The notes beneath the pieces are model-generated. The model saw only the letters and a program-made list of their open reading frames with translations. It was not told the DNA's origin and made no database searches. A DNA stretch of 64,000 bases from Halobellus clavatus (GTDB lineage: Archaea > Halobacteriota > Halobacteria > Halobacteriales > Haloferacaceae), in contig NZ_FNPB01000001.1 of assembly GCF_900107195.1 (NCBI RefSeq), forward strand, positions 496,001-560,000, given 5' to 3'. Below, one piece after another: positions 52,922 through 63,239 of the stretch. A program made the translations under genes and the position numbers. Position 1 is the stretch's first letter. The number at the start of each line of letters is the position of its first letter.

Positions 52922-52993
52922 GCCTGGGTAGCTTAGCGGTAAAGCGCGTCCTTGGTAAGGACGAGACCCCGGGTTCAAATCCCGGCCTAGGCT
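52922..52993 (+). tRNA. tRNA-Thr (anticodon GGU)
   Basis: A cloverleaf can be drawn: acceptor GCCTGGG (52922-52928) pairs with CCTAGGC (52986-52992) with one G-T pair, followed by discriminator T. The anticodon stem CGTCC/GGACG encloses loop TTGGTAA with anticodon GGT. The T-arm is CCGGG-TTCAAAT-CCCGG. CCA is not encoded. A promoter-like CCTAAAG lies about 26-32 bases upstream. The 3' end is the apparent insertion site of the following element. Confidence 0.95.
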
Positions 52994-53010
52994 TCCTCTC
53001 CCTGCTACGT

Positions 53011-53088: not shown

Positions 53089-53189
53089 CCGACGCAGTCA
53101 CGCGTTTTCACAGAAAAGACAGGCATACTACATTATACATTTAAAGATTGCCACGCAAACGATCTAGATCTAGTACAGAGGATCGAACT

Positions 53190-54314
53190 ATGACGTACAG
53201 CTCTGAAAACAAAGTTGACGGGATCGTACTCGTCACCGACGACGCGAAAGAATACCTAAACCCGAGACAAGAAGTCACATACCGCGAACACCGCCGCAAC
53301 CTAGTAGAATGGATGCTAGCCCTCGGCAAAAACCCTGACAAAGCCCAGGGCTACAGCCACTCCACCACCAAAAACAGAATGAACCGTTTGGATTTGTTCT
53401 ACCGGTTCGTCTGGAACAGGAAAGGCCGGTTCGTCCAAGACCTGACCACGGACGACGCCGACGACTGGATGCGCCACCTCGCCACCGAGGATATGAAGGA
53501 ATCCACGAAGAACCACTACCAGAAAGCCGCCAAGACCTTGTTCAAGTGGAAACGCGAGGCCCGCAACAAAAACACGGAATGGGAACCCGAGATCCAGTAC
53601 AGCGACCCTTCCACGACTTACACTCCACGGGACTACCTAACCAAAGACGACCGCCGCAAACTGAGAGAAGCCGCAATGAGCTACGGAAGTGTACCCCACT
53701 ACAACAGTGTAACCCCCAGTGAACGCGACAGATGGAAAACATACCTCTCACAGAGACTTCAGAAACCGAAGGATGAAATCACGATGAAGGACTGGGAAAA
53801 GGCAAATTCCTTCAAGTACACTTCGATGATTCACGTCGCCCTGGATGCGGGCCTACGTCCTATCGAGATTAAGCGAAGTAATGTTCACTGGGTCGACACC
53901 GAAAACGGCGTACTACGGATCCCACGCGAAGAAAGCAGTAAGAACCGGGAGAACTGGATAGTCGCACTCAAAGAAGAAACCAGTCAAATCCTGAAACGCT
54001 GGCTCGACGAACGAGAAACACGAGAAAAATACGACGGCCGGGACGCGCTCTGGCTCACAATGTACGGCAACCGCTACAACAAAGACAGTTTCCGGGACGT
54101 CTTCCGCAAAGTCGCTAAGGAAGCCAATCTGGATTTGGAGAACCGAGACCTAACACCGTACAGCATCAGACACAGTACTGCGACCTACGTAGCCGAGGAA
54201 GAAGGACTCGCAGTAGCCGCCCAGCAGTGTAGACACAAGTCGAAGCGGACCACGGAGAAGTACGAACACAGTAGTACGACACGGCAGCAGGACGCCGTCA
54301 ACAACATAGACTAA
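53190..54314 (+). CDS. tyrosine recombinase/integrase
   Basis: A 374-residue integrase. The N-terminal SAM-like core-binding domain (about 20-130) has YREHRRNLVEWMLALG and LTTDDADDWMRHL. The catalytic domain has the first arginine in DAGLRPIEIKR (near 223), an R-x-x box written YSIRHSTATY (near 323-332, Tyr at the usual first His), RHKSKRTTEKYEH and the nucleophilic tyrosine near 358. It should integrate the element at tRNA-Thr. ATG at 53190 is preferred over a TTG at 53148. Confidence 0.92.
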   Translation: MTYSSENKVDGIVLVTDDAKEYLNPRQEVTYREHRRNLVEWMLALGKNPDKAQGYSHSTTKNRMNRLDLFYRFVWNRKGRFVQDLTTDDADDWMRHLATEDMKESTKNHYQKAAKTLFKWKREARNKNTEWEPEIQYSDPSTTYTPRDYLTKDDRRKLREAAMSYGSVPHYNSVTPSERDRWKTYLSQRLQKPKDEITMKDWEKANSFKYTSMIHVALDAGLRPIEIKRSNVHWVDTENGVLRIPREESSKNRENWIVALKEETSQILKRWLDERETREKYDGRDALWLTMYGNRYNKDSFRDVFRKVAKEANLDLENRDLTPYSIRHSTATYVAEEEGLAVAAQQCRHKSKRTTEKYEHSSTTRQQDAVNNID

Positions 54315-54932: not shown

Positions 54933-55238
54933 GTGATTGGATTGTCGCAAAAACGTAAGACGGAATCTCAACTTGGCAAATTCAAAAAATTGTACAACTA
55001 TGCGGTTACCCGGCCGTGCGGTCACTCTCTCCAGTACAGAGGTTACACCTTGGAGAAAGTGGACTGGCCTCACCCGGAGCACGATGAATATAACATCAAA
55101 AACCGGGATGGCAAAGTAGTAGAGAGCTACACCATCACAGCCTTTGACTCACCTAAAGACCTGAAACAGAAACTGGACAAGCTGATCAACCGGAACCCTT
55201 CAACAGTCAAGGAAGCCCTCGGAGGTGGCAACACGTGA
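54933..55238 (+). CDS. hypothetical protein coupled to radC
   Basis: A 101-residue basic protein starting at a GTG after an AT-rich promoter stretch. It contains PCGHSLQYRGYTLEKVDWPH and a C-terminal helix (SPKDLKQKLDKLINRNP). Its stop overlaps the RadC GTG start (GTGA), so the two are translated together. No recognised domain. Confidence 0.65.
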   Translation: MIGLSQKRKTESQLGKFKKLYNYAVTRPCGHSLQYRGYTLEKVDWPHPEHDEYNIKNRDGKVVESYTITAFDSPKDLKQKLDKLINRNPSTVKEALGGGNT

Positions 55239-55669
55239 GGCAGGAACTCGGCAACCTCACAGTAAAAGCCGAGATACAAAAACAAGAACCCGACACGGTA
55301 CAGTCACTTCACGACGTAGTCGACAGGTACGAGTCCCTGAAACACGGGCAAAAGGAGCACCTGTACGCTGTTTTCCTCACCAACGGCAACCGGTTCATCG
55401 GAGACAAAATAATCGGGTTAGGCAGCCGCGACACCGTCGAGATTGACATACAGGACGTGGTCAGAACCGCCGCACTCACTAACGCCGGCGCAGTCATCCT
55501 TGTACACAACCATCCCTCCGGCAAACCTGGAGCCACAGCAAAAGACATCGAAGTCACCAGGGAAGCCAGGGAAGTACTGGAGAAAATCAACGTCGAACTA
55601 TTGGACCACGTCATCATCTCCAGGGAAAGCCACTACAGTATGCGGAGGGCAAACGATGGACCATTCTAA
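55235..55669 (+). CDS. radC: RadC-like JAB/JAMM-domain protein
   Basis: A 144-residue protein consisting of the RadC/JAB metalloprotease-fold domain. The JAMM signature is HNHPSGKPGATAKD (H91, H93, S95, D104), which binds zinc. RadC proteins are frequent in mobile elements, where a role at replication or as anti-restriction factors has been suggested; true repair function is unproven. The N-terminal helix-hairpin-helix of bacterial RadC is absent. Confidence 0.88.
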   Translation: MRQELGNLTVKAEIQKQEPDTVQSLHDVVDRYESLKHGQKEHLYAVFLTNGNRFIGDKIIGLGSRDTVEIDIQDVVRTAALTNAGAVILVHNHPSGKPGATAKDIEVTREAREVLEKINVELLDHVIISRESHYSMRRANDGPF

Positions 55670-55757: not shown

Positions 55758-55988
55758 ATGGACACACAGACAGTACTCGAAGAATACGGGCTTTCCCGAG
55801 AAACAGCCGGCAAATACGTAGACGCGATCACCCGATCCAACCAGACACAGACCGCAGAAGAACTCAACGTCAGCAGGGACACAATCAACCGGTACAAGAA
55901 CGCCTTCTCAGAAATGAACGCGCAGGAACGATTACTTCTCATCTCCACTCTAACCCAGGAAAAACTCCTCGACCAAGCCACAGAGTGA
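55758..55988 (+). CDS. small HTH protein
   Basis: A 76-residue protein, MDTQTVLEEYGLSRETAGKY, with a clear helix-turn-helix in TQTAEELNVSRDTINRYKNA (near 35-55). An upstream in-frame ATG at 55656 would add 34 residues and overlap radC. It may be an element regulator or an excisionase-like factor. The following frame lacks a normal start codon and may be joined to it. Confidence 0.65.
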   Translation: MDTQTVLEEYGLSRETAGKYVDAITRSNQTQTAEELNVSRDTINRYKNAFSEMNAQERLLLISTLTQEKLLDQATE

Positions 55989-56282: not shown

Positions 56283-58826
56283 ATGCGCCATAATGACCTT
56301 CCTCGTTTGGATCTACATACATTAGAAGGGTTATCAGAGTTGTCGGAGGTGGAATCAACGGAGTCCTTGGAGGATGGCGTTAGGATTGAAGTCAATGGTT
56401 CGTATTTGTACTTCTATCATCCTGGTGGACCGCAAAGCCAATTAGAGAGCCTTCCAGAGGATATTGATCGTGTTTTCATTACGGTCGAGAGAGGATTCTT
56501 AGAATTTGCTGACCAGGGAAACCTGTACTACACGTCTTCTGAAGCCGATTCTTTTGAAGAAATTGTAGAGATGTTAATTACTCAGGAGATTGAGGGAGAG
56601 GTAGTTGAAATTGATGAAGCATTAGAGAAACTGATTGATTCCGGGTACTTAGCAGGGTTTACTCCCCAGTCGGTAACCGAGATCTTAGCTGGCTGGGCAA
56701 TCTCATCATCAGATGAATCTGTTTTGGATATTGCGACGGGAACAGGCAGCCTTCTGAAACAAGCCGCCAAAGAGAACGAAGAGGCAGAGTTAGTCGGGAT
56801 AGAAATAAATCCGGTAATCGCTAAATTAGCTCAAGCCCGGTTGAAAGACATTAGCAACGCTGAGATTCTGAATACCGATTTCTTCGACTGGAACCAGTTA
56901 GGTCAGCAAGAGCTGGGTGAAAAGGATGACTCACGAAAGTTCGACGTTGTGATCGGTAACCCTCCGGTTGGAAGGATGCATCATATAATACCGGAGAAAC
57001 GTGATGAACTACGGGACAAATACCCAGATATCGGATCCACGGCAGCAGCTGGGTTCGTAGCGAAGGCAGCAGAGCACCTGAAAGAGGGAGGATGTGGAGC
57101 ATTCGTACTTCCTAAATCCGCTCTAAGAGATGAGTTGCTGCAGCACCTAACAGAATTCTGTAGCATCCATAGAATTGTAGAAATGCCGATTGGCACATTC
57201 AACTACGCTAGAGCTCCAGAACTGGTGCTGCTAACCTTTATTAAAGAAGAGAGGTCGCGGGAAGAGCGAGAAACAGGGATTGCGAGATTCAACAAGCCAG
57301 AACTACCAGAAAATGCTCGTGGACTCTTCGAGCAACCGTTGAAAGGAATTGTTCAAAATCGACATAACCCCTACGACGCCGAAATCGTGCGGGCATCTCA
57401 CGCCGATCTTGAAGGTAAAAACGTGATGCGGATACTCTCGAACCCGCCAATCTACGACATAGTTACCTCTGAACAGTTCCCAAGACTGGGTGATCTACCT
57501 GGTGTCACAGTTGGCTCAGGTGTTCAAACAGGAAATAATGATTTATTTTATTTCGGCGTTGATGAGAAAGAAGATTCGAAAATCGAGGCCCGGTTCTTCC
57601 GACCACTCATCAAGAATCCTCGCGATGACGTTCAATCAATTACTGAGGACGAGATTGATCGATATATTCTAGATCTACAATCCTATGTTGAGGAGCAGGA
57701 GGAGAATGGAGTCGAGGTCACAGAGGAGAACATTATTGACCAGCTGGAGGATGATGGATACAGTGGTTTAGCTGACTATCTACGGGATGTACCGGTTAAT
57801 CCCCGTAAGCGAAGACCGTATTTCCTACCTGAATACCGGGGTAAAATCGACAGCGTAGACTTGGTTATTCCGGAATTCTTCGACACTCCTCGCTGCTACT
57901 CTGTAGAGGTTGAGGACGCAATGTTTGATAATACGATGATTGGTGTCCAAGTTGAAAATGACCAGATGGCAGATGCTATATCACGATTGCTGAATACACC
58001 ACTTTACAGAGAGTTTTTCCAGACATTCGCCGGCACGATGAATTTGGATTGGTATCGGATGAATATCGGCCAGGCCAAGGATATTCCCATTATCAAGAAT
58101 GCCCTTACCGAGGATGTATTCGACCGTATGGACCCGTTCTTTCCGCCAGATGATGACAACGACTTGGTGAATCTGAATCAACTTCTGATAGAAAGCTGTG
58201 AGAGCGATGAAGGAAGCCAGATGCTTCGCCAGTACTTGGCATCCAGAGATAATTACGCCTGGTCTTGGTTTATGACTCTACCCGAGTTTGAGGAGTTTCA
58301 GGAATTGCTGGAGTCAGATAAAGAGGAAGCGCGGGAGTTCGTCGTTAACCGGTTTGATCAAGAGCTCTTGGATCAGGCTCGGAACACGTTTGAGAATATC
58401 GAGTTCTTTGAGGAGCGTAGAGAACTGTTGAATGATCTGCTGATGGAGTTTGAGGAAGGACACTACAGAGGGTTCTTGGCCGGCATTGTTCTCCAGTTTG
58501 AAGGAGTGCTCGCTGATCTGGTGGAAGAAGCAGGTGGAGAGATAATTGAGGAAGATCACGAGACCAAGTTCAAGATGCCGGGCAGAGGTCGTAGCCAAAC
58601 AAAGAATCTGGGTAGTCTGATCTCACACTTCTTTGACGGCGTCTTCAGCACCTTCTTGGACGAGACTGTAAGACAGCGACGTAATCAAATCGCGCACGGA
58701 GACGTTATAGAAAACAGCCGTGACCTCTCAATACATTTCTTTATATCCTTCTACGCCCTCTGTAATGCTTCTCTAAATGAGTACGTGCGTTTAGCTGAAC
58801 AAGACCAATCTGGAATGCCTGCCTAA
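56283..58826 (+). CDS. adenine-methyltransferase-like protein with C-terminal HEPN motif
   Basis: An 847-residue protein. Residues 1-115 are an unfamiliar acidic domain. Residues 120-330 form a class I methyltransferase of the N6-adenine/Eco57I-TaqI kind, with SAM motif DIATGTGSLLKQAA (149-162), GIEINP and the catalytic-loop position GNPPVGRMHH (225-234). The motif is normally NPPY/F/W, so Val replaces the aromatic residue. Residues 380-620 resemble a TaqI-type target-recognition domain (LGDLPGVTVGSGVQTGNN). The last 130 residues are helical and contain RNQIAHG (R800-H805), the R-N/D/H-x3-H signature of HEPN RNases. It is markedly less GC-rich than even the rest of the element. Confidence 0.82.
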   Translation: MRHNDLPRLDLHTLEGLSELSEVESTESLEDGVRIEVNGSYLYFYHPGGPQSQLESLPEDIDRVFITVERGFLEFADQGNLYYTSSEADSFEEIVEMLITQEIEGEVVEIDEALEKLIDSGYLAGFTPQSVTEILAGWAISSSDESVLDIATGTGSLLKQAAKENEEAELVGIEINPVIAKLAQARLKDISNAEILNTDFFDWNQLGQQELGEKDDSRKFDVVIGNPPVGRMHHIIPEKRDELRDKYPDIGSTAAAGFVAKAAEHLKEGGCGAFVLPKSALRDELLQHLTEFCSIHRIVEMPIGTFNYARAPELVLLTFIKEERSREERETGIARFNKPELPENARGLFEQPLKGIVQNRHNPYDAEIVRASHADLEGKNVMRILSNPPIYDIVTSEQFPRLGDLPGVTVGSGVQTGNNDLFYFGVDEKEDSKIEARFFRPLIKNPRDDVQSITEDEIDRYILDLQSYVEEQEENGVEVTEENIIDQLEDDGYSGLADYLRDVPVNPRKRRPYFLPEYRGKIDSVDLVIPEFFDTPRCYSVEVEDAMFDNTMIGVQVENDQMADAISRLLNTPLYREFFQTFAGTMNLDWYRMNIGQAKDIPIIKNALTEDVFDRMDPFFPPDDDNDLVNLNQLLIESCESDEGSQMLRQYLASRDNYAWSWFMTLPEFEEFQELLESDKEEAREFVVNRFDQELLDQARNTFENIEFFEERRELLNDLLMEFEEGHYRGFLAGIVLQFEGVLADLVEEAGGEIIEEDHETKFKMPGRGRSQTKNLGSLISHFFDGVFSTFLDETVRQRRNQIAHGDVIENSRDLSIHFFISFYALCNASLNEYVRLAEQDQSGMPA

Positions 58827-58887
58827 GCTACGCAATTCCTCGGGTCTTGGGTTAGACCTTTGAAATTTGAGGTTTAATCCGGCGGGT

Positions 58888-59976
58888 ATGGGATTCCTGG
58901 ATTTCCTGACTGGCCTGTTCGGCTCGCAGGAGAGCTCTACAGCTGATAGTAGTTCTCAAACGTCGACTTCGTCCGGTTTGAGGGTTGACCTTCCTAACGT
59001 TGAGTACCAGGGGAACCGGTTTTTCTCTGAAGCCTCTGAATCGGAGAACGGCGAGTGGATAGTAGTCTACGGGAAGGCTATGCAGGTGGAAAACGAGATT
59101 CATAGGCTCTTCCTCCTGAGAGAGGAGGAGCTCCAGTTCACGAAGGAGTTGAAGCGTATCGAGGATGCGAGGATAAGTGATACTGGTAGTGTGCTGGCTA
59201 TTGACGGTGAGAGCCGGGAGGACTTGTCCGGCAGGCTGTACGTGTTTAATCGTAGCGGCGATCAGGTTTTCAGCCAGGGTTTCGATGCAAACGTCGGGGC
59301 TTCAGCCCTCTCCAGCGACGGCAGGTACGCTGCTGTCGCCACTTTGAATCCGGACTGCTCCACGTACGTCTTCGACCTCAGTGAAAGCCGCCAAGTTCTG
59401 AAACACGAGAACCAGGAAGGTAACAAGATGGGCTTAGAGTACAAAGACGAAGAAGGCGAGACCCGTGTTTATTTGTCTGAAAGCCCTGATTCTGGGCCTC
59501 TCTACGCTATCGATTTAGGGGGAGATGTTGTGTGGAGGAGTGAGGAGTTGCAGAGAAAACACCGGTTGCAGGAGTTGATGGATAGCAGTGAGACTGAGGA
59601 TCTTGAAGAGGCTCTAGATCTGCTGGACGAAGCTTACGAGCTGGCGGACGGTGAGAACGAGAAGAAGAACGTGGCTCAGAAGTTGGCTGATACGCACTGG
59701 AGTCTAGCTAAAAGCTCGGAGAATGACTCGGACGAGTGGTGGCAGCACCTGAACCAGGCCAAGGCGTACTACACCGAGATATTGCCGTGGTACGATGGAA
59801 AGCAGGGTGTGGCGAAGGTCTCCCGCAAACAGGGGAAGTACTACCTGAAGCAAGACCAGGAAGAAGCCGCTTTGGAGATGTTCCAGAATATTGCTGATCT
59901 AGAAGAAGAGTACGACGTACAACTTCTCACGGATGCTGACGAGAGGAAGTTGGAGGAGTTGTCACAGGAATCTTGA
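58888..59976 (+). CDS. beta-propeller-like/TPR protein
   Basis: A 362-residue protein. It starts with a hydrophobic amphipathic segment (MGFLDFLTGLFGS) and a Ser/Thr linker (to about 40). Residues 45-220 have repeated strands like a WD/PQQ propeller (ISDTGSVLAIDGE, SSDGRYAAVATLN, GPLYAIDLGGDVVW). Residues 225-350 are helical repeats of TPR type (LEEALDLLDEAYELADG, QEEAALEMFQNIADL). It lies 61 bases after the methyltransferase-HEPN gene on the same strand and may be its partner or sensor. Its end overlaps the convergent PLD gene by 15 bases. Confidence 0.68.
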   Translation: MGFLDFLTGLFGSQESSTADSSSQTSTSSGLRVDLPNVEYQGNRFFSEASESENGEWIVVYGKAMQVENEIHRLFLLREEELQFTKELKRIEDARISDTGSVLAIDGESREDLSGRLYVFNRSGDQVFSQGFDANVGASALSSDGRYAAVATLNPDCSTYVFDLSESRQVLKHENQEGNKMGLEYKDEEGETRVYLSESPDSGPLYAIDLGGDVVWRSEELQRKHRLQELMDSSETEDLEEALDLLDEAYELADGENEKKNVAQKLADTHWSLAKSSENDSDEWWQHLNQAKAYYTEILPWYDGKQGVAKVSRKQGKYYLKQDQEEAALEMFQNIADLEEEYDVQLLTDADERKLEELSQES

Positions 59977-61995
59977 GATCAGGCCTTTGTCCTCGTTGAT
60001 GTTGAAGGGGAACCAGTCGTCTACTGCTTCTTCGGCTTTGATCTGTATCTGGTTGCCGTCCTGCTGTGCACGTGCTTCGTTTGGTAGTGTGCGGGCGTAT
60101 TTCCGGACGCTGCTGTAGACGCTGAGTGAGTCATCGAACTTGGCAATGAGGTTGCCGTTACGCCTTTGGAATTCGACGAGATCACTTCTGTATGCGTCTT
60201 CCCACATCCATTTCCCGATGTCGTATCTTTTCTCGGCAGGCTCTTCAGGGAAGTAGCTGGGTAGGTCCCGGTTTGCTTGTTGGTAGAGGTTTTTGAAGAC
60301 TTGACGGGCTTCTGCGAGTGTGTCGGCGTCTTGACTCCGCATTGTGACGTCTCTGTCTTTGAAGATTTCCGCGAACCAGGTGAATAACGGGTTGCTTCGC
60401 TCTGTGAGGTCGTTCACGTATTTCGCGGTTTGATGAGTGTCTTTGAACTGGATGTCGAAGTTGAGGATCTTGGCGCGGTGCTGTATCCGGCTTCGTGGGA
60501 GGTTGTCGTTGCTGATGAATGCGAGTGCTGGGATATCTACTTCGCCGGTCCAGTGTTTCTGCCGGAAGTTGAGGTAGGTCTCGATGTCCAGGTCGTTTGG
60601 ATCGATGTCGTCGAATACGACGGGGAAGACGGAGTCGACCCTTCGAACTCTGGTGAGATTGGTTTTGTTTAGGTCGTCGCCGTCTTTGGGTTCTGTGACG
60701 TGGCCGTTGGAGAGTAGGTGGAAGGCGTACCGGGTGAGTGTTCCTTTGCCGCTGCCCGGTTCTCCGTAGACGTAGAGGCTGGGCAGGTACTTGTCGAGGT
60801 CGATGCCGTTGTCTTTGTAGACTGCTGCGTACCGGTTGATGAACGGTGCCCAGAAGAACCAGATGATGGCCTCCCACATCTGGGCCTTGACCGCTTCAGG
60901 GTGATCCGTGCGGCCGAACTTGTCCACTGTTTGGAAGTACTGTTCTAGGTATTCCAGGGCTTGATCGATTTTCTCTGGGTCGTCTGGGAGTTCGCGTGTG
61001 AGTTCGAGCTGTCTTGCGGATTCGGTTTGTAGTATGAGTTTGTCGTCGCTGTTGAACCACATTTTCGGTGCTCCGAATTTCTCTTTCGAGTGTTTGCTGA
61101 TTGCACCGGGAGATGCTCGAAGGGTTTTGCCGTCGATTGCTGCATCGATGGAGCGGGTTTCTTCTCTCAGGTCGGTGAGAATGTCGTCAAATCCGTTCAG
61201 GGATTGTGTGATGGTTTGGTCGGCTTGGTTTTCGTTGTTGCTGACGGCCAGTGTGAGGTCTGGGTCTTCGAATTCTCCTATGATGGTTGCTTTTTCGACG
61301 TTTGCTTCGTCCAGTCGTTCGGTCAGTTCTTGTTCGAGTTCGGCCTCTTCTTCCTGGGATGTGGTGCGGCCGTCCACCCACGCGTGTATGATTTCTTCGC
61401 GTTCTTCGTCGTCGACCTCTTCGAGCTGGTCGGTGAGGTCTTGCATAAACTGGTCGGCGTAGCCTTTGTGTTCGTCGTACCAGGTGTCGAAGACGTTGTC
61501 GAGCGGCTGGTTGCCATCGGTTTGGAAGACGGCTATCGCGTTTTTCTGTCGTGTTGATCCCCAGCCTTGTTCGCTGAGGTTGGGTGATCCGAGGATGTTG
61601 GTTCGGGAGCCGTCTTGGTGTTGTAGTATGTATATTTTGGAGTGGACCTCGTTGCTTCGGAGGCTGGCAAGGTAGATGCGTAGCCGGTTTTCGCGTTGTA
61701 GGCGTTCGAGTTTTTCTGCGAGTTGTTCCTTGCCGCGTAGTTTCTTCCTGTAGTCGAGTGTGTTGTCTCCGATGACGACTTCGAGGTTGACGTCGTCTGT
61801 TCCGATGTCTTGGAGGAGGTTGAGGAGCGTCTCGGGTGAGTCCGAGTAGGTGATTGCGCGTATGTCGGTTACGTCTTCGGTGAAGTAGGTCTCGAAGTTG
61901 TCCCTGGTTTTGAGCGTGGCTAGCTCTAGCTCTGCTTCTTCGTCTTCGCTGAGCTGTACTGCGGTTTCGTAGAGCGTGTTTGGGTTTTCTGGCAT
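59962..61995 (-). CDS. PLD-nuclease/P-loop ATPase fusion
   Basis: A 677-residue protein. Residues 40-165 are a phospholipase-D-like domain with VHSKIYIL (H118, K120) and ILGSPNLSEQGWG (GSPN 136-139), as in PLD-type nucleases; the Asp of the HKD motif is not at its usual place. An acidic helical linker follows (190-290). Residues 370-600 form an AAA+/SF3-helicase-like ATPase with YGEPGSGKGTLTRY (Walker A 411-419), VVFDDIDP (Walker B 461-465), FISNDN (sensor 1) and a basic RSRIQHR. ATG at 61995. The combination suggests an ATP-driven nuclease acting on foreign DNA or on element replication. Confidence 0.8.
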   Translation of the reverse strand: MPENPNTLYETAVQLSEDEEAELELATLKTRDNFETYFTEDVTDIRAITYSDSPETLLNLLQDIGTDDVNLEVVIGDNTLDYRKKLRGKEQLAEKLERLQRENRLRIYLASLRSNEVHSKIYILQHQDGSRTNILGSPNLSEQGWGSTRQKNAIAVFQTDGNQPLDNVFDTWYDEHKGYADQFMQDLTDQLEEVDDEEREEIIHAWVDGRTTSQEEEAELEQELTERLDEANVEKATIIGEFEDPDLTLAVSNNENQADQTITQSLNGFDDILTDLREETRSIDAAIDGKTLRASPGAISKHSKEKFGAPKMWFNSDDKLILQTESARQLELTRELPDDPEKIDQALEYLEQYFQTVDKFGRTDHPEAVKAQMWEAIIWFFWAPFINRYAAVYKDNGIDLDKYLPSLYVYGEPGSGKGTLTRYAFHLLSNGHVTEPKDGDDLNKTNLTRVRRVDSVFPVVFDDIDPNDLDIETYLNFRQKHWTGEVDIPALAFISNDNLPRSRIQHRAKILNFDIQFKDTHQTAKYVNDLTERSNPLFTWFAEIFKDRDVTMRSQDADTLAEARQVFKNLYQQANRDLPSYFPEEPAEKRYDIGKWMWEDAYRSDLVEFQRRNGNLIAKFDDSLSVYSSVRKYARTLPNEARAQQDGNQIQIKAEEAVDDWFPFNINEDKGLISRFL

Positions 61996-62064
61996 AGGTT
62001 TCCCCGTCCTCCGGTGTGACCTGGAATCGGTCAACTGTCCTACTAGTGGAATATCCGGGGAAGG

Positions 62065-62096
62065 TTTTAATAGTTTTGCTGATAGAGTATAGTTTG
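62065..62096. promoter_or_regulatory. AT-rich divergent promoter region
   Basis: TTTTAATAGTTTT and GATAGAGTATAGTTT lie between the divergent PLD-ATPase (start 61995) and P-loop/winged-helix (start 62121) genes. TATAGTTT is about 25-30 bases before the ATG at 62121, fitting a leaderless archaeal promoter. Shared control of both units is likely. Confidence 0.5.
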
Positions 62097-62120
62097 AGAA
62101 AACGAGAGTGGTTTCACCTA

Positions 62121-63239
62121 ATGGATGACGAGCAAGACAAACTGAATCGATTCCAAGAAGCATTCGAGAGAGGTCAGGAAGGCCAGATCAGCAACTATGA
62201 GGCCTGGCTACAGGACCAAGGAATCGACTCAGAGAAAGTAAATAGAGAATACTTGGAACAGTACTTCCGGGAGAACCCGGAGAATGCAGTAAACCACGAA
62301 GAAGAGTTAGAGGAAGTTGCGGAGTACATCGGGTTCTTCTCCCGGAGAAGCAACGTCTACCACCTACCGGTTATCGGGATTTCGGAGGTAGGGAAGACCC
62401 AGTTCATTCAAACAGTCTCCAACCTTCTCGGCCAGATCGAACCGGAGATCGAGCAGCGAACCTACCGGGCAGACGATTTCACGGAACTTGGTGAAGACGA
62501 GGAGAGGATCTTCGAGGTCAGAGATGAGCTTCGAGGCCTGGACAAGGTCGTTGTATACGTTGATGACTGTGAGTGGGCAGAGGCGGAGAGTCTCCTTGAA
62601 TCATTCCGCGTGATTGAGAGCGTTGTTGATGACGCGTTCCTTGTCACGTCGTGGACTCCTGAGTACTGGATGCACCACAGGGAGGATGTCGAAACAGTCC
62701 TTCCCTCCTCTACTGAGATCCACCTCTCTCCGTTTTCGGAGAAGGATTCACTGGAGGCGTTGAATCAGGTAGTCAAGGTTCTGTCCGATGACGGGTTGGA
62801 TCTCCCCGAGGAATTCCTTGAGGAAATCCACCGGTACAGCACCGGTATTCCAGGCGTCTTCACGGACTTGTTGCTTGCTTCGCTACGCGAGGCGTTTGTG
62901 AAGGAGTTGGAGTTGGGTAGTACGGAGTCGGTGGAGGCTGCCGCCGGGAAACTGAACCTCGACGAAGTGGAGGAGACGGTGTACGAGTTGTCGGATACGA
63001 AGGTAACGATTCTGACCCATATGCTGCTGTGGAACCACAGGGATGGAATACGGCCGTCTCAGCTTGTCGACCTGCTGGACAGGGACAAGTCAACGGTGTC
63101 GTACCACCTGAAGGACTTGCAGGCAGATGGCTTGGTCGAGTCAGAGAAGCAGGGTCGTTCAGCGTACTACAGGGTCAAGAATCAGGTTAAACCATTCATC
63201 CAGACCAGAATCGCGCAAAACGGTGAGTACAATGGCTAG
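62121..63239 (+). CDS. P-loop ATPase with C-terminal winged helix
   Basis: A 372-residue protein. A charged helical N-terminus (1-75) is followed by a AAA/STAND-type NTPase with LPVIGISEVGKTQFIQTV (Walker A 86-93), KVVVYVDDCEWAEAE (Walker B near 142-156) and TSWTPEYW (sensor-like). A helical lid precedes a winged helix at about 305-365 (IRPSQLVDLLDRDKSTVSYH, then LVESEKQGRSAYYRV). The layout resembles archaeal Orc1-like or MJ-type ATPases and STAND sensors. Its 3' end overlaps the next gene by 8 bases. Confidence 0.78.
   Translation: MDDEQDKLNRFQEAFERGQEGQISNYEAWLQDQGIDSEKVNREYLEQYFRENPENAVNHEEELEEVAEYIGFFSRRSNVYHLPVIGISEVGKTQFIQTVSNLLGQIEPEIEQRTYRADDFTELGEDEERIFEVRDELRGLDKVVVYVDDCEWAEAESLLESFRVIESVVDDAFLVTSWTPEYWMHHREDVETVLPSSTEIHLSPFSEKDSLEALNQVVKVLSDDGLDLPEEFLEEIHRYSTGIPGVFTDLLLASLREAFVKELELGSTESVEAAAGKLNLDEVEETVYELSDTKVTILTHMLLWNHRDGIRPSQLVDLLDRDKSTVSYHLKDLQADGLVESEKQGRSAYYRVKNQVKPFIQTRIAQNGEYNG

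Follow-up and report, generated by a model that had tools for sequence, protein, structure and literature searches.

A haloarchaeal protein family in which a degenerate N6-adenine methylase is fused to a HEPN-like domain

Introduction

What does a protein do that looks like a DNA N6-adenine methylase, lacks the aromatic residue of the catalytic motif and ends in the signature of an RNase? In type IIG enzymes a DNase domain is fused to the methylase, usually at the N-terminus. The question arises from an open reading frame of Halobellus clavatus, contained in the stretch of 64,000 nucleotides that was analysed here (contig NZ_FNPB01000001.1, positions 496,001-560,000, forward strand; hereafter the window). 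An initial annotation had read its product as a DNA-sensing, RNA-cleaving abortive-infection effector, an interpretation that is partly supported by the analysis presented below.

Results

Architecture of the fusion protein

The coordinates and length of the reading frame (56283-58826, plus strand) proved exact, and the frame is intact, encoding 847 amino acids. Pfam matches to N6_Mtase (E 8e-18) and Eco57I (E 4e-11) lie at residues ~126-325, and over the last 160 residues no family match was significant in Pfam, a sub-threshold HEPN_RiboL-PSP match covering the RNxxxH region. The full-length AlphaFold2 model (pLDDT 78.9, pTM 0.70) matched CamA in Foldseek (E 5e-22) and in VIA (Z 23.3, rmsd 5.5, 462 residues aligned), the VIA alignment extending over residues 123-645. 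Further structural matches were M.BseCI, M.TaqI, type I M subunits, PglX/BrxX and type IIG enzymes. As the matches to CamA, M.BseCI and M.TaqI indicate, a methylase domain is followed by a recognition domain. The following features were assigned:

56283..58826, plus strand: whole gene, pseudo-N6-adenine methylase with HEPN domain (open frame, 14-member alignment, dN/dS well below 1)
56283..56642, plus strand: N-terminal region, residues 1-120, the fastest evolving part (low identity, no Pfam match)
56643..57302, plus strand: degenerate gamma-class methylase domain, residues 121-340 (N6_Mtase, Eco57I, CamA-type fold)
56958..56969, plus strand: motif IV NPPV, residues 226-229, replacing NPPY/F/W (family drift compared with control methylases)
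57303..58142, plus strand: target-recognition-like domain, residues 341-620, boundary approximate (VIA alignment to CamA)
58143..58400, plus strand: helical linker, residues 621-706 (predicted helices; 1 of 86 columns invariant)
58401..58802, plus strand: HEPN domain, residues 707-840 (AlphaFold2 model, VIA ranking, dN/dS 0.02)
58680..58700, plus strand: predicted HEPN active site RNQIAHG, residues 800-806 (invariant R800, N801, H805 and G806)

Residues 1-120 matched neither a Pfam family nor, at the sequence level, a nuclease family. Identity in this region is 57-58% inside the nearest subclade and 17-29% outside it, with no invariant column. Reading frame, Pfam matches, motif positions and family conservation thus bear out the methylase-like architecture with a C-terminal HEPN motif that had been annotated. 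The HEPN domain does not, however, take the place of the type IIG DNase, as had been suggested, but is added after the recognition domain.

The C-terminal domain is HEPN-like

HEPN domains with a motif of the Rx4-6H type, in which the arginine is followed by a polar residue (N, D or H), are metal-independent RNases (PMC3710099). The alignment of the family shows no variation at R800, N801, H805 and G806 in any of the 14 members; these four comprise the two residues, R800 and H805, whose conservation the initial annotation had proposed as a check; the polar N801 directly follows the arginine throughout. A bare R-x4-H would by itself mean little, since ~0.9 occurrences are expected by chance in a protein of such composition. 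The expectation for RNxxxHG is 0.003 and, with invariance across the 14 proteins, a chance motif was ruled out. Besides these four, R712, Q738, F739, E740 and G741 are among the invariant columns, and they too fall into the C-terminal domain. E740 is located in the second helix of the HEPN domain, but no K/R is found four residues on; the upstream acidic residue, typically as Ex3[KR], is present in many HEPN families, not in all (PMC3710099).

In the full AlphaFold2 model the motif region is arranged as a helix (786-804), a loop (805-811) and a second helix (812-842), and the same topology was obtained when the C-terminal domain was modelled alone (pLDDT 87.0, pTM 0.83). With this domain model Foldseek never returned a significant E-value (best 0.45). 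The top eight rows of the VIA comparison were all HEPN proteins (Z 7.6-9.6): Csm6 came first (Z 9.6, rmsd 4.3, 130 aligned residues), followed by the HEPN toxin from a HEPN-MNT pair in four entries (Z 8.1 to 7.9) and by AF0298 (Z 8.0), ST0689 (Z 7.7) and 2q00 (Z 7.6). Lower rows with HEPN domains included another HEPN-MNT complex, AbiV, LsoA and Las1. Because helical bundles can reach such Z values by arrangement alone, this ranking supports a HEPN fold and does not prove it; the assignment is based on motif, topology and ranking taken together. By domain model and ranking, the C-terminal fold is HEPN-like, as had been anticipated.

HEPN_RiboL-PSP was the most frequent Pfam match of the family (8 of 12 members, all below the cut-off), and R, H and G of the motif are also invariant in 20 domain relatives. 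One protein reached by the domain profile (L061) carries Pfam DUF4209, a recognised HEPN family (PMC3710099). The same HEPN-like domain, its R, H and G conserved, forms the C-terminus of about ten haloarchaeal proteins of 458-561 aa (L053-L062) with unrelated N-termini, most of them lacking a Pfam family; judged from their sequences, these are likely further HEPN effectors. Separately, at locus L032 a 190-aa reading frame with a HEPN-like RNRTAHG is located ~0.9 kb upstream of a 910-aa homologue, with a 255-aa protein between them.

The methylase motif has decayed in the fused family

An active gamma-class methylase carries an aromatic residue in motif IV, and the window protein has NPPV. The same form is found in L006 and L005. 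The L007-L010 group has DPPM, L004 NPPI, L003 NSPI, L013 APPA, L014 HPPA, L015 HPPI and L019 HPPV. Motif I, which reads DIATGTG in the window protein, can be recognised in 12 of the 14 and has disappeared together with motif IV in L016 and L017. The fourth position of motif IV is aromatic in none of the 14 fused proteins. The annotated loss of the stacking aromatic therefore holds and is broader than had been noticed, positions 1 and 4 both drifting across the family. The homologues share the fusion and all lack the canonical catalytic motif, instead of being active methylases paired with a separate nuclease.

Two sets of controls were compared. Eight N6-methylases without HEPN, drawn from neighbouring loci, plasmids and homologue searches, carry NPPY, NPPW or NPPF. 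For the second set 59 Halobacteria were drawn, from which 30 PF02384 loci were taken, and motif IV was read by alignment; Asn and an aromatic residue are kept at positions 1 and 4 in 29 of these 30 haloarchaeal N6-methylases, in the forms NPPF/Y, NFPF and NPMW, L084 being the only control without a resolved motif. Taken together, the methylase of the fused family looks catalytically dead from its sequence, and an ordinary active methylase was ruled out by the motif IV drift and the controls.

Several of the controls (L071, L072, L074, L075 and L076-L085) are type I M-like proteins with NPMW or NFPF instead of NPPF; hence, searches for the pattern NPP[YFW] miss such haloarchaeal proteins. The Halobellus genome also encodes, on contig C23, an N6-methylase-like protein (L002:646-3171) in which DPPR replaces NPPY and the HEPN motif is absent, possibly another degenerate methylase.

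Distribution, descent and selection

A scan of species genomes yielded three relatives with 59-70% identity. Among 391 Halobacteria, 17 genomes gave a match, including relatives at ~25-30% identity; one of these matches (L021) is a plain NPPY methylase that lacks HEPN. All 14 homologues that were aligned come from Halobacteria, and beyond this class a draw of 393 genomes of the same phylum gave no match at E 1e-6. Among plasmids one diverged homologue was found, in Natribaculum breve (L016). A virus-borne gene was ruled out, three scans of viral contigs and a search of a phage collection having returned no full-length relative.

In a tree of the methylase domain all fused proteins form one clade (support 99/97), the placement of the long branches L016 and L017 inside the family being unsure. 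Consequently, the aromatic residue was probably lost once, anciently, with further drift thereafter. The 14 members are therefore non-independent cases of loss, and the argument is carried by the later drift of position 226 set against the strict conservation of the HEPN residues.

In most homologues the identity to the window protein climbs towards the HEPN end. dN/dS was calculated by a simple Nei-Gojobori estimate for two pairs (window/L006 and L004/L003). It was lowest for the HEPN domain (0.02) and rose through the linker (0.05-0.10), the recognition part (0.12-0.16) and the methylase part (0.16-0.22) to the N-terminal region (0.23-0.25). By this sequence measure the scaffold is under selection, though less tightly than the predicted HEPN effector, a pattern that would fit an arms-race sensor with a fixed effector.

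A pseudogene was ruled out for the window copy. Some homologues are broken: L018 has an in-frame stop, L003 an apparent frame break near the N-terminus, and L020 and L063 are short remnants, which would be consistent with a costly or dispensable gene.

The window copy resides on an integrative element

The fusion gene lies on an element of ~56 kb that is integrated in tRNA-Thr. Its ends are a perfect 45-bp direct repeat of the tRNA-Thr 3' end, the right copy being located outside the window (contig 605041-605085). From the integrase to contig position 605085 the GC content is ~43-56%, compared with ~65% outside. The unusual base composition that had been ascribed to the gene is thus real in being low in GC, but it is a property of the whole element and not special to the gene. 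The features of the element are:

52951..52995, plus strand: left attachment repeat, tRNA-Thr 3' part and next bases (perfect 45-bp direct repeat)
53148..54314, plus strand: tyrosine integrase of the element (Phage_integrase E 4.7e-22)
55758..55988, plus strand: small helix-turn-helix protein, 76 aa, upstream of the fusion gene, possible regulator and optional part

At L023 and L005 the homologue is likewise preceded by a reading frame related to the helix-turn-helix gene, and at L004 by a degraded-looking one; none was seen at the other loci. An HsdM-like gene with NPPF is present on the same element, ~30 kb from the fusion gene.

The element further encodes a stand-alone RadC-type JAB domain protein (55235-55669, plus strand; Pfam RadC E 5e-30). 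Directly downstream of the fusion gene lies a gene for a 369-aa protein with weak TPR matches (58867-59976, plus strand), for which clustering found no partner at the other loci. It is followed by a gene (59962-62163, minus strand) whose 3' end also adjoins the homologues of L024-L027, as if it were a recombination remnant; its product of 733 aa combines a PLD-nuclease domain at the N-terminus with a P-loop region. The gene for a P-loop-like protein with a C-terminal winged helix (62016-63239, plus strand) runs on the strand opposite to the PLD gene and overlaps its start. From 63951 to the window end, and on the contig to ~566239 (L022:11952-14240), runs an Argonaute-like gene (762 aa, PADLOC pAgo E 4.5e-51), after which come genes for a Mre11-like phosphoesterase, a Rad50/LmuB-like ATPase and NurA. 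In L005 this Mre11/Rad50/NurA-like trio is also found by cluster, 4 kb downstream of the homologue.

The gene appears to move alone

Four genomes from three genera and two families share a block of ~3.3 kb that is 97-99% identical, with different surroundings. The fusion gene is the only large gene in this block, and hence it seems to travel alone. When the loci were compared by clustering, no gene accompanied the fusion gene at every one of them, and an obligate partner gene was ruled out, the helix-turn-helix gene being limited to the nearest subclade and the degraded-looking relative.

Neighbours with defence-related matches include Avs2 and HEC-05 at L004, and Ppl together with the NPPY methylase of a DrmMI-like cluster at L029. 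L003 is the only locus at which type I HsdR/HsdM adjoin the fusion homologue. A DrmD-like helicase with a DrmMI-like methylase is found at L030 and, by cluster, at L034, with McrBC on the other side, and the same pair occurs at L031. At L024, L025, L028 and L032 the large neighbours that were scanned gave no match to a defence model. This descriptive listing of defence genes at many loci would count for an immune reading.

Discussion

Judged from the conservation pattern, the fused family has a methylase and recognition scaffold that has lost the canonical catalytic motif while selection was kept, joined to a HEPN-like domain whose predicted catalytic residues are invariant. The best explanation, which we favour with some reservation, would be a single-gene immune sensor-effector; RNA cleavage, trigger and defence role are what we infer. 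It is argued for by the invariance of the HEPN residues against the drift of motif IV, the controls that keep this motif, the contrast in dN/dS and the single clade. The single-gene mobile block, the defence neighbours, the HsdM with NPPF on the same element and the precedent of PrrC point in the same direction, while the best Foldseek E-value of 0.45 and the Pfam matches below cut-off speak against it. There is perhaps an even chance that the family represents a new class of stand-alone immune proteins, in which a methylase of restriction systems came to serve as a sensor without catalysis and was joined directly to a HEPN RNase within one mobile gene.

In such a protein the dead methylase would be the switch. 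In the healthy cell the scaffold would hold the HEPN domain off. When the DNA cleft meets the wrong ligand, which may be DNA of an invader or an anti-restriction protein by which a virus mimics DNA, a shape change would free or dimerise the HEPN RNase. This enzyme would then cut RNA of the cell or of the virus, and the simplest outcome would be dormancy or suicide. The sensor-effector would work beside ordinary restriction systems, as PrrC does. In CamA the tyrosine of NPPY stacks on the flipped adenine (PMC8187626), and BrxX with the equivalent Tyr-to-Ala exchange (Y511A) neither bound nor methylated DNA and no longer gave defence (PMC11842806). Hence, the scaffold may no longer hold a flipped base, and the BrxX result weakens sensing by base flipping and counts against the sensing of base modification that had been proposed at first. 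Within the sensor-effector reading, the recognition domain may sense DNA, or DNA-mimic anti-restriction proteins may be captured; both are compatible with the data and about equally probable.

The second of these triggers gives a sub-case of the best explanation that may be considered by itself: the pseudo-methylase would be a decoy whose cleft binds Ocr/ArdA-like anti-restriction proteins, and that binding, not DNA, would release the HEPN RNase. To our knowledge, no haloviral anti-restriction protein that binds the fusion protein is known. We regard this as a possible but rather doubtful account. It needs neither methyl transfer nor base flipping, Ocr and ArdA target methylase and recognition folds, as in the solved complexes 7eew, 7bst, 7bto and 8q56 of the structural matches, PrrC is triggered by an anti-restriction peptide (PMC3710099), and restriction-type genes lie nearby at several loci; these restriction-modification neighbours are, however, not constant.

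The fusion could instead be an addiction module, in which a HEPN toxin is held by the methylase-like part in cis or by the helix-turn-helix protein in trans and stabilises the element with no role in defence. HEPN domains are common toxins (PMC3710099), the gene sits on an integrative element and the nearest subclade has the small gene upstream. We nevertheless consider it unlikely, as no partner is conserved across loci, the block shared by four genomes carries the fusion gene alone, and a scaffold of ~700 residues under selection exceeds the needs of an addiction toxin. A DNA or RNA methyltransferase that is still active with an unusual motif IV, the HEPN domain being merely RNA-binding or accessory, is very improbable. 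SAM may still bind where motif I is recognisable, and Asn226 is kept in the window protein; position 226 is, however, N, D, A, H or lost across the family and the fourth position never aromatic, two members lack motifs I and IV, and the HEPN domain keeps exactly the RNase residues under a dN/dS of 0.02. That the gene is a non-functional, decaying methylase with a chance motif, as the four broken homologues might suggest, is hardly credible, being contradicted by conservation and selection: the frame of 847 codons is intact, dN/dS is well below 1 in all domains of the measured pairs and the HEPN residues are invariant.

With CamA, M.BseCI, M.TaqI and type IIG enzymes such as BpuSI the family shares the methylase and recognition fold; it differs in lacking the motif IV aromatic and any recognised DNase domain and in its C-terminal HEPN domain. 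The anticodon nucleases PrrC and RloC offer a working analogy, a HEPN RNase under a DNA-related sensor beside restriction-modification (PMC3710099); PrrC couples its RNase to a type I system and is activated once this system has been disabled (PMC3710099). Their sensor, however, is an N-terminal ABC (SbcC/Rad50-like) ATPase, whereas the N-terminal part of the fusion protein is a methylase fold, and the PrrC gene is embedded in an hsdMSR operon, which the fusion gene does not require. In BREX-related Type-1 systems of a 2026 survey, HEPN is likewise a built-in suicide effector of a restriction-like system, but it is carried by DUF499 ATPases that occur with a separate N6-methylase and a helicase (PMC12839542), not by a stand-alone methylase-like protein. 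PglX/BrxX of BREX, a structural match, has a methylase and recognition domain that detects foreign DNA; unlike the fusion protein, BrxX has retained NPPY, on which its DNA binding and defence depend, lacks HEPN and has several partners. To the DUF4209 and RiboL-PSP HEPN families the link is the domain profile that reaches L061 and the commonest sub-threshold Pfam match; the matches of the fused family stay below cut-offs, however, and methylase fusions are not described for those families in the literature searched. DISARM has constant drm genes, whereas here DrmD/DrmMI-like genes occur only at the distant L030, L031 and L034 (at L029 the methylase only), and within 20 kb around the window fusion gene no drm genes were found. 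Identities as PrrC, DISARM or a canonical methylase were ruled out by the lack of an ABC ATPase, the lack of constant drm genes and motif IV, respectively.

According to a 2013 survey, HEPN domains linked to restriction-modification are fused to nucleases, helicases and ATPases, not to methylases, which was taken as an argument that restriction, not modification, is the process to which HEPN is coupled; a table of the same survey lists occasional fusions of DUF86-type HEPN domains to nucleic-acid methylase domains (PMC3710099). In the literature searched, which left most subscription journals outside, no prior report of a methylase-HEPN fusion of the present kind was found. The fused family belongs with the known HEPN effectors tied to restriction-modification components and would be a new form among them. 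As the methylase that is fused to HEPN looks catalytically dead, the family is an exception that sharpens the 2013 rule. If the proposed reading is true, recognition modules of restriction-modification systems would have been reused as pure sensors, a single mobile gene would unite an RNA-cutting response with the ability to recognise foreign DNA or anti-restriction proteins, and one compact protein would be at hand for asking what triggers a HEPN suicide RNase.
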